A stretch of DNA of 64,000 bases from Dysgonomonas sp. 520 (lineage in GTDB: Bacteria > Bacteroidota > Bacteroidia > Bacteroidales > Dysgonomonadaceae): the NCBI RefSeq assembly GCF_010501095.1, contig NZ_QVMP01000003.1, forward strand, positions 1 through 64,000, read 5' to 3'. The notes beneath the pieces are model-generated. The model did no database searches. It was not told the origin of the DNA and saw only the letters and a list, made by a program, of their open reading frames with translations. Numbering within the stretch: the stretch's first letter is position 1; each line of letters begins with the position of its first letter. This document shows, one piece after another, positions 28,092-51,468 of the stretch. Position numbers and translations under genes: made by a program.

Positions 28092-28165
28092 TCTTCCTTA
28101 GCTCAGTCGGTTAGAGCATCTGACTGTTAATCAGAGGGTCCTTGGTTCAAGTCCAAGAGGAAGAG
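28092..28165 (+). tRNA. tRNA-Asn (anticodon GTT)
   Basis: Complete cloverleaf: acceptor stem TCTTCCT (28092-28098) with AGGAAGA (28158-28164); D arm with GCTCAGTCGGTTAGAGC; anticodon stem TCTGA/TCAGA around loop CTGTTAA, with GTT at 28126-28128; T arm CTTGG-TTCAAGT-CCAAG (28141-28157); discriminator G. CCA is not encoded. A rho-independent hairpin follows 10 bp later. The 3' half is repeated 23 kb away at 51366. Confidence 0.97.
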
Positions 28166-28223
28166 CAAGAAAGACAGCCACTTACAATACAATGCAAGTG
28201 GCTGTTTCTTTTTGTTGCACACG
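28124..28223 (+). repeat. attL-like direct repeat (3' half of tRNA-Asn plus terminator)
   Basis: From the anticodon loop (CTGTTAA) to TTGCACACG, about 100 bp matching 51366-51468 at roughly 90% with a few substitutions and short indels. The breakpoint in the anticodon loop is one of the usual crossover sites of tRNA-targeting tyrosine recombinases. TTGCACAC and its inverted form (GTGTGCA near 28241) flank the end, possibly recombinase arm sites. Inference: left end of a genomic island. Confidence 0.7.
28175..28213 (+). terminator. Terminator of tRNA-Asn
   Basis: Stem CAGCCACTT (28175-28183) and AAGTGGCTG (28196-28204) followed by TTTCTTTTTG. The same hairpin is carried in the distal copy of the repeat. 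Nothing else is evident between it and the aldolase gene stop at 28304. Confidence 0.85.
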
Positions 28224-28303
28224 CCTTATATTTATTTACCGGTGTGCAGGTGTTAAATACGGCAAGACTGACAATTTCATGTTAAGTAAAGGAAGAGCAA
28301 AAA

Positions 28304-29215
28304 TTATCCCATTTTATTGCAATACGAATAAAATTCCAGACATTCCAGCTCGTTCAGAAATTCCGTTTCTTGCTCATTGCTTAAATTGGATACCGGAGGT
28401 CGATATGCACCAAGATCCAAACCTGTAGCCTTCATAAAGGCTTTTCCTGTTCCTCCTCCATATTTATTCAACAAGCAAATCAGTTTGTTCGCTTTTAGTT
28501 GAAACTCTTGCGCACCCAACATATCCTTCTGTGCATAATATTCGAACACTTTATTATATATAGGTGCCATATAACCATATGTGCTGCCAACGGCCCCTTG
28601 GGCACCCATAGCTAAAGCTCCCAAAAGCATTTCGTCTCGCCCCCAGAGTATATCGTATTTTTTATTTTTGAAATCGAGGCAAAGCTGATAATCCATCAGG
28701 TTTTCGTAAGTGTATTTTATGCCTGCAAAATTAGGCAACTTGCCATCAATCTCCTCCAATAAGTCTATCATCGGGAAATAGGCATTTGTGAAAGAAGGAA
28801 TATGATAATAGAAAAATGGCATATCCGGAACGCTTGACGCCACATCAATACAGAAATCAGATAACGCTTTAACGTTGGCAGCCTTAAAATAATAAGGAGC
28901 GGTGAGAGATATGGCATCAAGATCACATTCTTTAGCCAATAATGCCAACTCAATACATTCTTCAACACACGTACCGCCCAAAAATGCGATAACCTTAAAA
29001 TCGGCTGTTTTGTATTTTGCCCATTCTTTAAAAAGGATTCTCTTCTCGTCCATTGTCAGAGCCGAACTTTCACCGGTTGTTCCACAAATAAAAACCCCGC
29101 TGATTTTATTGTTCTTATACATATAGGCCTGTCGTTCTATCATCGACAAGTTCAATTTTCCTAATTTGTCAAATGCCGTAAATGGGGCTACAATTAAACC
29201 CTTAATTTTTTTCAT
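28304..29215 (-). CDS. N-acetylneuraminate-lyase-like aldolase (DHDPS/NAL superfamily)
   Basis: Cytoplasmic Schiff-base aldolase of 303 residues. Family motifs: GLIVAPFTAFD at the N-terminus, GTTGES (45-50) which binds the pyruvate carboxylate, Tyr137 in FFYYHIPSF, and the Schiff-base Lys167 in FAGIKYTYEN. The YYHIP motif is that of N-acetylneuraminate lyases rather than dihydrodipicolinate synthases, so it probably cleaves a sialic acid or another 2-keto-3-deoxy acid to pyruvate and an aldose. It is the first island gene after tRNA-Asn, convergent with it, and divergent from the FadR-type regulator and PUL2. A sialate O-acetylesterase in the same locus supports sialic acid, but no N-acetylmannosamine epimerase or kinase gene is seen in the window; a KDG-type aldolase is the alternative. 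Confidence 0.82.
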   Translation of the reverse strand: MKKIKGLIVAPFTAFDKLGKLNLSMIERQAYMYKNNKISGVFICGTTGESSALTMDEKRILFKEWAKYKTADFKVIAFLGGTCVEECIELALLAKECDLDAISLTAPYYFKAANVKALSDFCIDVASSVPDMPFFYYHIPSFTNAYFPMIDLLEEIDGKLPNFAGIKYTYENLMDYQLCLDFKNKKYDILWGRDEMLLGALAMGAQGAVGSTYGYMAPIYNKVFEYYAQKDMLGAQEFQLKANKLICLLNKYGGGTGKAFMKATGLDLGAYRPPVSNLSNEQETEFLNELECLEFYSYCNKMG

Positions 29216-29277
29216 GATATTTAAATATTATATTAATAAGTACTACATATCTATTATAGAATATTACATATTTACAG

Positions 29278-29389
29278 CAAAAGTAGCTAAAAAACATTTA
29301 TAGATACTACATAATACATGATATAAAACATATTTTACATATATTAACATTATATTAAGTATTATGTATTACCTAATAATCTATATTTG
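29278..29389. promoter_or_regulatory. Divergent promoters and candidate FadR-type operator
   Basis: Two exact -7 boxes face outward: TACTTTTG on the minus strand (29278-29285) for the aldolase and TATATTTG on the plus strand (29382-29389) for the regulator. Between them, TACATAATAC (29308-29317) and GTATTATGTA (29359-29368) form a perfect inverted 10-bp pair, and a related TACTACATA lies near 29240. These are good candidates for binding by the FadR-family protein encoded next. Confidence 0.55.
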
Positions 29390-29411
29390 TCATACAATAA
29401 AACAAAATACT

Positions 29412-49135: not shown

Positions 49136-49185
49136 GATGATACCTGACAAAAGAAGGAATATAAATGAATTAATCTAATAATCAC

Positions 49186-51303
49186 ATGAAAAAACTATTA
49201 TTACTCTTAGTCTTTTGCTTGATAGCTAGGATAGCTATGTCTGAGGAGCTTAAGTCACCTAATGAGAAATTAGTGATGAAGTTTTCTGTACAGGATGGAG
49301 GAATACCGTCTTATGAATTGTCTTATAAAGGGAAAAAAGTAATAGACCTAAGTAGATTAGGGTTGGAATTTATCGGAGAAAAACCTTCGTTTTATGACAA
49401 CTTTACAATAGTGAATGTGAAAAATGCGACATTCGACGAAACATGGCAGCCTGTATGGGGTGAGACAAGTGATATTCGCAATCATTATAATGAAATGGAA
49501 GTTACATTGAGCCAAAGGGAAACTGGGCGAAATATGATACTCCGTTTCCGCTTATTTGACGATGGGCTTGGCTTTCGTTACGAATTTCCTACTCAAGACA
49601 GTCTAACCTATTTTGTAATAAAAGATGAATTGACTCAGTTTGCCATGACAGGAGATCATATTGCTTTTTGGATACCGGGAGACTATGATACGCAGGAGTA
49701 TGATTATACAACTTCACGTTTATCCGAGATCCGGGGTTTAATGAAAGGTGCAATCACTCCGAATTCGTCACAAACATCATTTTCCCCCACGGGCGTTCAA
49801 ACGGCTTTGATGATGAAAACTAACGAAGGATTATATATCAACATACACGAAGCTGCTCTTATCAATTATTCTTGTATGCATTTGAACCTGGATGATAAGA
49901 ACTTTGTATTTCAATCCTGGCTCACACCCGATGCCAACGGAACCAAAGGACATTTACAGGCTCCATGCCATACACCTTGGCGTACTATTATAGTGAGTGA
50001 TGATGCATGCGACATTCTTGCATCTAACCTCACATTGAACTTAAATGAGCCGTGCAAGATAGAAGATACATCATGGATTAAGCCTATGAAGTATGTGGGG
50101 GTATGGTGGGAAATGATCACCGGAAAAAGTGAGTGGTCATATACAGATGAAGTGGCTGGTGTAAAAATCGGATCAACTGATTTTTCTAAAGTTAAGCCTC
50201 ATGGACGTCACGGAGCAACTACGGCCAATGTAAAAAGATATATTGATTTTGCTGCACAACATGGATTTGATGGAGTATTGGCTGAAGGATGGAATATCGG
50301 ATGGGAAGACTGGTTTGGTTTATCTAAAGACTTCGTTTTCGATTTTCAAACCCCTTATCCGGACTTTGATATTGAAGAAATTCATCGTTATGCAAAATGT
50401 AAAGGCGTTAAAATGATCATGCACCACGAAACATCCTCGTCTGTTCGCAACTATGAACGGTTTATGGATGATGCGTATCGGTTAATGAACAGATACGATT
50501 ATCCGGCAGTAAAAAGCGGTTATGTAGGAAATATCATCCCTCGTGGAGAAAAACATTATAGCCAATGGATAAATAATCACTATCAATATGCTATTGAGAA
50601 AGCTGCAGAATATAAGATAATGGTGAATGCTCATGAGGCTGTGCGGCCTACAGGTGTTTGTCGTACCTGGCCAAATCTGATTGGAAACGAATCGGCTCGT
50701 GGAACAGAATTTCAGGCTTTTGGTGGAAGTAAACCAAATCATACTACAATATTACCTTTTACCCGTTTGATTGGTGGCCCTATGGATTATACTCCCGGAG
50801 CTTTCGAAAATGATATTAGTAAATATAATCCGAATAACGATTCGTGGGTAAACACAACTCTGGCAAATCAATTATCTTTATACGTAACCATGTCCGGTCC
50901 ACTTCAAATGGCTTGTGATCTTCCTGAAACTTATGAAAAATATATAGATGCATTTCAATTTATTAAAGATGTAGCATTAGACTGGGATGAATCAAAATAT
51001 ATTGAAGCCGAACCAGGAGAATATATTACAGTTGCGCGAAAAGCAAAAGATTCAGATGACTGGTTTGTTGGAAGTACAAATGGAGAAAAAGGGCGGAACA
51101 GCATTATTAATTTCAATTTTCTTGAAAAAAATAGAACATACATTGCTACTATTTATTCTGATAACCATGATGCCCATTACAAAACGAATCCTCAAGCATA
51201 TAATATTCGCAAAATGCAAGTAACTAATAAATCTAAACTATCGCAATACTGTGCTCCCGGAGGAGGGATGGCTATTAGTATATGCCCCAAGAAAGATAAG
51301 TGA
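49186..51303 (+). CDS. GH97 glycosidase, inverting (SusB-like) subgroup
   Basis: Calcium-dependent alpha-glucosidase-type enzyme. It has 705 residues and a signal peptide (1-19, ending AMSE). An N-terminal beta-supersandwich is followed by the barrel from about 300 ([11 protein letters not shown]). The three glutamates of SusB (E439, E508, E532) are all present with identical spacing: E415 in MHHETSS, E484 in [11 protein letters not shown] and E508 in ESARGTEF, and there is no nucleophilic Asp at the retaining position (the sequence there reads AVKSGYVG). It should therefore invert configuration and act on alpha-glucosides. It is the last gene of PUL2 and ends 62 bp before the tRNA remnant. 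Confidence 0.92.
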
Positions 51304-51314
51304 CACCCGATTTG

Positions 51315-51333
51315 CACACACACACACACACAC
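51315..51333. repeat. (CA)n dinucleotide repeat
   Basis: About nine to ten CA units after TTTG, 12 bp past the GH97 stop. Such tracts are uncommon in bacterial chromosomes and can vary by slippage. It starts with TTTGCACAC, the same word seen at both island ends. Confidence 0.8.
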
Positions 51334-51365
51334 TTGGGGAATCGTAGGTAATACTAAAGTCGTGC

Positions 51366-51468
51366 CTGTTAATCAGAGGGTCCTTGGTTCTAGTTCAAGA
51401 GGAAGAGCAAGAAAAGCAGCCACTTACAATACGATGTAAGTGGCAGCTTTCTTTTTTGTTTGCACACG
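51366..51468 (+). repeat. attR-like direct repeat: 3' remnant of tRNA-Asn plus terminator
   Basis: Begins CTGTTAATCAGAGGGTCC, identical to the tRNA-Asn anticodon loop onward, keeps the T arm (CTTGG-TTCTAGT-TCAAG, still pairable) and acceptor 3' strand AGGAAGA (51400-51406), then the same terminator hairpin (GCCACTTA/TAAGTGGC, 51419-51444) and TTTGCACACG. There is no 5' half, so it cannot be a tRNA. A second TTGCACA word follows at 51470. Matches 28124-28223 at about 90%. Confidence 0.75.

Follow-up and report, generated by a model that had tools for sequence, protein, structure and literature searches.

How does a complete sugar-use locus come to lie between an intact tRNA gene and a displaced copy of the 3′ half of that gene? 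The question is raised by a stretch of 64,000 nt from Dysgonomonas sp. 520 (assembly GCF_010501095.1, 3.91 Mb in 68 contigs), which we call the window (NZ_QVMP01000003.1, positions 1-64,000, forward strand); its contig, designated C33 here, was compared with two others, C43 and C13. The locus, PUL2 (PUL, polysaccharide utilization locus), occupies 28.2-51.3 kb of the window. The interval is probably a decayed, integrase-less site-specific island at tRNA-Asn, similar to a cis-mobilizable element (CIME) and carrying PUL2.

The tRNA-Asn gene at 28092-28166 is the sole tRNA of the window according to ARAGORN, and a TATCTTTG box, which we take to match the promoter consensus, is seen upstream of it. 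A sequence-only reading had reported a repeat of its 3′ half 23.2 kb away, in the same orientation, at about 90% identity and devoid of the 5′ half. Indeed, blastn finds the 3′ half and the terminator again at 51363/51366-51468, on the same strand and with 89% identity, without the 5′ half, and the onset of this remnant is exactly the 7-mer of the anticodon loop, CTGTTAA, at 51366. Below, CTGTTAA is the "core" of the attachment (att)-like sites and the shared DNA to its left is the "arm". The features of the two ends, all on the + strand, are as follows.

28092-28166, +, tRNA-Asn (GTT), intact target gene and left boundary, read as attL (ARAGORN)
28124-28130, +, anticodon loop CTGTTAA, putative 7-bp crossover (overlap) region, start point of all three half copies
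28167-28213, +, hairpin terminator 3′ of the tRNA, repeated 3′ of the remnant (alignment, blastn)
28215-28223, +, arm-type word TTGCACACG, P′ side (word search)
51304-51365, +, P arm at the right att site; contains the arm word TTGCACAC (51312) and a CA-repeat and, compared with C43:50385-50529, lacks about 90 bp internally (alignments, shuffles)
51366-51408, +, tRNA-Asn 3′ half from CTGTTAA onwards, two substitutions (alignment)
51409-51452, +, copy of the tRNA terminator (alignment)
51460-51477, +, arm-type words TTGCACACG (51460-51468) and TTGCACA with an 11-bp period, P′ side (alignment, paired-word search)

The right site is decayed, as seen in its shortened arm, its CA-repeat and the substitutions in its tRNA half. 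The first PUL2 gene lies 80 bp from the left arm word, and 62 bp separate the GH97 stop (51303) from the core at 51366, the distance already noted from the letters alone.

Seven places in the genome match the tRNA-Asn repeat: two whole genes (window and C13 near 48.0 kb), three half copies (window, C43:50530 and C43:17058), one tRNA-Met and one terminator-like stretch. When aligned, all three half copies begin at C-CTGTTAA, with tRNA sequence after this point and other DNA before it. The sequence-only reading had itself named scattered tRNA-Asn fragments, unlinked to gene content, as the finding that would speak against an island. Other halves do exist on C43, one of them near mnmE and far from any tRNA, and to that extent a pairing by chance finds some support; but these halves are structured att sites beside sugar genes and thus help the general idea of sugar-locus islands. 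The common exact start in the anticodon loop, the shared arms, the clustered arm words and the correct order and strand also argue against chance, and only about 0.02 same-strand downstream pairs within 23.2 kb are expected from three halves and two whole genes in 3.91 Mb. We hold such a coincidence to be very improbable.

Arms, cores and paired words

The foreign arm to the left of the window remnant is common to C43:50385-50529 and C43:24005-24104. In local alignments that left out the core and were scored against 1000 doublet shuffles, the two C43 arms reached a similarity of 95.5 (shuffle maximum 57.5), and the window arm reached 47.5 with C43:50385-50529 (shuffle maximum 35.5). The full module, C43:50385-50636, consists of two TTGCACACG words, arm, core, tRNA half, terminator and two further TTGCACACG words, the left pair at 50385/50396 and the right pair at 50617/50628, both with an 11-bp period. 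Since arm words of this period lie on both sides of a core, the layout is, judging from sequence, that of the attP of a tyrosine recombinase, and the window preserves it in part. This module is preceded by a GH43 (glycoside hydrolase, GH) gene. The terminator loop is shortened in both C43 tRNA halves, unlike the window and C13 copies in the same alignment.

The words themselves are concentrated at these modules. In the 280 kb read (C43 1-100 kb, C33 1-120 kb and C13 20-80 kb), seven of the eight occurrences of TTGCACAC are at modules and the eighth is at C43:11822; six of the seven TTGCACACG occurrences in the whole of C33 (159.3 kb) and the first 120 kb of C43 are likewise at modules. A search of the whole genome for paired TTGCACACG with up to three mismatches gave eight places vs four for the reversed control. 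With no or one mismatch only C43:50385, C43:50617 and C43:11814 (minus strand) were left, the right end of the window having two mismatches. The C43:11814 site is also similar to the outer arm (78.5 vs a maximum of 66.0 in 1000 shuffles), and neither core nor tRNA half was seen there.

From this arrangement we infer a course of the following kind. An old island, 28124-51372, would have entered as a circle, with an attP made of the arm, CTGTTAA, a captured tRNA-Asn 3′ half with its terminator, and a second arm. A tyrosine recombinase would have joined this attP to the anticodon loop of tRNA-Asn, rebuilding the tRNA on the left (attL) and leaving half a tRNA on the right (attR). The cargo would have been the PUL (GH92, SASA, GH97 and a NanA-like aldolase) with its own regulator; the integrase would then have been lost, and the right att site would have decayed afterwards. 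The footprint of tRNA-targeted integration, first proposed on the remnant, is now seen in the anticodon-loop position of the putative crossover, the P arm, the paired arm words and a second att-bounded sugar interval described below.

Anticodon-centred sites are one standard class for tyrosine integrases. In an extract of the Islander report, 2083 of 3919 islands are anticodon-centred (PMC4383910). The window interval resembles such islands in its intact tRNA, the displaced 3′ fragment on the same strand and the anticodon-centred att site; however, Islander requires an integrase between tRNA and fragment, and the window interval has none.

The sugar locus between the sites

The claim that the DNA between the sites is one sugar-use locus with its own regulator was borne out by Pfam on the 14 main open reading frames (ORFs) of 28.2-51.3 kb. 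A susC/susD pair is accompanied by glycan enzymes, the combination by which a PUL is recognized. The genes are listed here.

28304-29215, -, aldolase of the N-acetylneuraminate lyase/DHDPS family (PF00701, 1.1e-40; best NCBIfam match N-acetylneuraminate lyase, below its cut-off)
29364-30116, +, GntR/FCD regulator (PF00392, PF07729)
30286-33441, +, SusC-like TonB-dependent transporter (Pfam; relatives at 58-61% in nine other family genomes)
33484-34935, +, SusD-like lipoprotein (PF07980)
34951-36165, +, BNR-like protein, weak (PF13088 at 22 bits, cut-off 31.4; no PDB relative)
36153-37415, +, major facilitator superfamily (MFS) transporter (PF07690)
37665-39632, +, two Por_Secre_tail proteins, with the C-terminal secretion sorting domain (PF18962)
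39693-43730, +, two GH5/Glyco_hydro_cc-like proteins (PF11790 above cut-off in both, PF00150 above cut-off in the second only)
43734-45941, +, GH92 (PF07971, PF17678)
45969-47702, +, 577-aa protein with no Pfam match and one weak PDB match
47714-49135, +, SASA, sialic-acid-specific acetylesterase family (PF03629)
49186-51303, +, GH97 (PF10566, PF14508, PF14509)

No mobility gene had been noticed in the interval beforehand, and none was recognized here. Zero of the 28 PF00589 matches of the genome (27 above cut-off), the mark of tyrosine integrases, are on C33, and no relaxase, transposase or conjugation protein was found by Pfam on the 14 main ORFs, minor overlapping ORFs not being scanned.

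In an extract on CIMEs, these elements retain their att sites while integration and transfer genes are gone, and tandem accretion is described (PMC5704250). The window interval similarly lies between attL (tRNA-Asn and the P′ word) and a decayed attR (arm, core and tRNA half), with no integration gene and, within the Pfam scan above, no transfer gene, and on these grounds it may work like a CIME. It differs in that exact-pattern scans found no integrative and conjugative or integrative and mobilizable element with the same att arms, in that the cargo is a PUL, and in that a second interval lies at a non-tRNA site. For gut Bacteroidetes, an extract of PMC6907783 gives 47 SusC/SusD loci on mobile elements; the PUL as cargo is common to these and to the window interval, but the latter is hardly more than its PUL.

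A second att-bounded interval on C43

Two incomplete modules on C43 are complementary halves. The one at C43:17058 has core and tRNA half without arm, the one at C43:24105 has arm and core without tRNA half, and a distance of 7.05 kb separates them; their T...P order and their strand fit the integration of a circle with an attP of the C43:50385-50636 type. Between them lie genes for an MFS transporter, an FGGY kinase, a class II aldolase, RhaM, L-fucose isomerase and an AraC regulator. The first gene starts 183 bp away from the tRNA-half module, and 150 bp separate the last gene from the core. This fucose interval contains none of the genome's 28 PF00589 matches. The exact TTGCACAC is absent at both of its ends, where the arm words are decayed. 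The outer flanks, when joined, form no tRNA, so we regard the insertion point as a secondary site. An alternative pairing, of C43:17058 with C43:50530 as the two ends of one element, was rejected because HPPK, RNase E/G and mnmE lie between.

Two sugar loci thus have the same att halves at their ends, arranged as circle integration would leave them, and for this reason sugar-use genes have here probably travelled as integrase-less islands. The spread of PULs in Bacteroidota is only partly accounted for by large conjugative elements, and two sugar loci with one att pair, and nothing else recognized inside, would make a smaller transfer unit testable. Use of secondary and of tandem sites is described for site-specific islands in an extract on Salmonella genomic island 1 (SGI1; PMC2297512), and the present intervals may be alike on both counts.

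Could such operons never have had an integrase of their own? The sequence-only reading had raised the idea of a PUL moved by a recombinase supplied elsewhere, which is possible but unproven. Stated fully, att-ended sugar operons would never have been linked to an integrase and would be moved in trans, in the manner of integron cassettes. Both complete intervals consist of just a sugar locus and its own regulator within closely fitting att ends, no integrase or relic was recognized in either, and C43:50385 is also preceded by a sugar gene (GH43). However, deletion of an integrase module would look identical, two intervals are few, no candidate recombinase was found and exact patterns gave no arm copies in the contigs of 84,980 species or in IMG/VR. 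We regard this explanation as unlikely. By a doubtful extension of it, the sugar loci of the lineage might form a cassette set sharing one tRNA-Asn-derived attP and moved as circles in trans. The circles would then insert into tRNA-Asn and into secondary sites. Such a set would include PUL2 (23.2 kb) and the fucose operon (7.05 kb), and the ends of two more members might be marked by the GH43 genes to the left of C43:50385 and by the AraC, sugar-transporter and GH2 genes to the right of 51468. Among known systems, tycheposons are similar to the proposed islands, being tRNA-associated islands with nutrient-gene cargo that are moved by tyrosine recombinases.

The search for a cognate recombinase covered the 28 integrase loci of the genome with up to 1.5 kb on each side; no arm words in an att setting were present there, though a distant-acting recombinase would escape this search. 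A stop-broken integrase at C43:42880-43728 was considered and not adopted, because it lies immediately after the mnmE 3′ end and might belong to the mnmE-type integrases. SGI1, unlike the present intervals, has the mnmE/thdF end as its target and an integrase of its own. The order at C43:41449-43728 is mnmE 3′ end, helix-turn-helix gene and tyrosine integrase with an in-frame stop, and a weak copy of the mnmE end is present at C43:82253.

Outside this genome, the species-contig scan gave one distant SusC, from Snuella (28%). Among the matches listed for plasmids and phages only the tRNA part was covered, and among those listed in a family search with the remnant and 50 bp of its left side, none outside this genome reached the left side. 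By the searches made, the arm thus appears so far restricted to this genome.

At least 25 paralogs of the gene to the right of the fucose interval, C43:24431-25234, are present in the same genome (56 candidates, of which 25 were scored), and five genomes from one other genus have several copies each. Conservation covers about the first 105 residues of the paralogs, most of which vary in the remainder; all three copies checked are neighbours of an AraC-type regulator gene, or of a homolog of it, in divergent orientation.

Relatives and the case against an island

The family offers some independent information on tRNA-Asn as a target. Two or more tRNA-Asn genes stand close together in 13 of the 19 relatives' stretches, mostly about 106 bp apart, and the group adjoins a sugar-kinase-like gene in 10 of the 19 (kinase families below cut-offs). 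Across 37 relatives' loci, some overlapping, we counted 62 whole tRNA-Asn genes, one half copy and one copy cut by a run of N; as positive controls, the same scan recovered the window half and that at C43:50532 but did not detect C43:17058, which is more diverged. The single half copy belongs to a genome of another genus (G062), where a tandem tRNA-Asn pair precedes it by about 2.2 kb on the same strand; it is followed by a terminator and retains GCATCTGA of the anticodon stem. Downstream of 65 tRNA-Asn copies in the relatives' loci, TTTGCACA occurs once and TTGCACAC not at all. The G062 fragment thus suggests that tRNA-Asn serves as a target in other members of the family as well, there without the arm of this genome.

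Two further intervals were noted among these loci. Between the G062 pair and its half copy (L099:7655-10083, G062:C37) there are two ORFs of at least 90 aa, one of them holding a run of N. In another relative (G007:C7:287526-304358; L092, L093) the distance between two whole tRNA-Asn genes is 16.7 kb, where about 106 bp is usual, and none of the five proteins scanned from this interval is an integrase.

Empty sites were sought by synteny. On the left flank, 3 of 13 relatives' stretches contain the whole VTC-DUF4956-DUF2490-Cthe_2159 operon and the DNA downstream varies; on the right flank, GH2 relatives exist and their neighbours differ in the seven stretches read.

PUL2 itself has a patchy distribution: with a threshold of E<=1e-180, SusC is matched in 22 of the 101 family genomes, its own included, and the nine other genomes with SusC relatives at 58-61% belong to four genera. 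GntR, aldolase, SusC, SusD and often MFS form the shared core of these loci. In relatives with SusC at 58-61%, the identity of the aldolase and of GntR is 32-39%; these two have diverged much more than SusC and SusD.

Several observations weigh against the reading of the interval as an island that brought PUL2 to tRNA-Asn. A comparison of composition with the flanks had been suggested; the G+C content of PUL2 is ordinary (0.390 vs 0.402 in the left flank and 0.405 in the right), and the tetranucleotide distances of the sugar intervals are no higher than for 7-kb blocks elsewhere in the sequence read from the three contigs. A search for the same PUL at other tRNA-Asn genes had also been suggested; no tRNA was found near its relatives in 18 stretches from 13 family genomes, several contigs ending soon past the locus. 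No empty site was found in the genomes searched, among which this one is the only member of its genus. The kinase neighbour is present at the C13 tRNA-Asn and not at that of the window, which lies after the Cthe_2159 gene, away from the usual neighbour in the family, and this implies that the locus was rearranged. Concerning the sites, the window arm matches C43:24005-24104 more weakly, with a score reached by 1 of 1000 shuffles, and TTGCACACG is present at one of the 28 integrase loci, there 13 bp upstream of a tRNA-Phe gene. At the right att site, arm words flank the tRNA half on both sides, where a plain attR expects chromosome rightward; the TTGCACACG to its right could be a junction to a further island or a captured stretch. 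Finally, either the left or the right copy of the tRNA 3′ half may be the one imported by the island.

Some of these points fit an alternative in which the att pair is real and the PUL is not its cargo, the island body having been lost and PUL2 being native or a later arrival by other recombination. In its favour are the ordinary composition, the position of the family's examined PUL relatives away from tRNA-Asn, and the mosaic nature of the locus, deduced from the identities of aldolase and GntR as compared with SusC. On the other hand, both att ends fit the PUL closely and the fucose interval (G+C 0.408, against 0.386 in the remaining part of C43 that was read) is built alike. We consider this alternative quite unlikely and retain the integrase-less island carrying PUL2 as the probable explanation; the degrees of confidence given to the four explanations are overlapping and need not add up to one.

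The surroundings of the interval show features of their own. The next sugar locus (AraC, sugar transporter, GH2) starts 54 bp past the right arm words; this part of the window, 51460-55761, looks like the start of a further island, with no right end found on C33. Just before tRNA-Asn, the 3′ end of the Cthe_2159-type gene (window 27495-27905) is duplicated at C43:81704-82114 with 91% identity over 411 bp. Dispersed intergenic repeats at 5471-5690, 7947-8013, 16577-16842 and 25956-26048 of the window are common to other parts of C33, to C43 and to C13.

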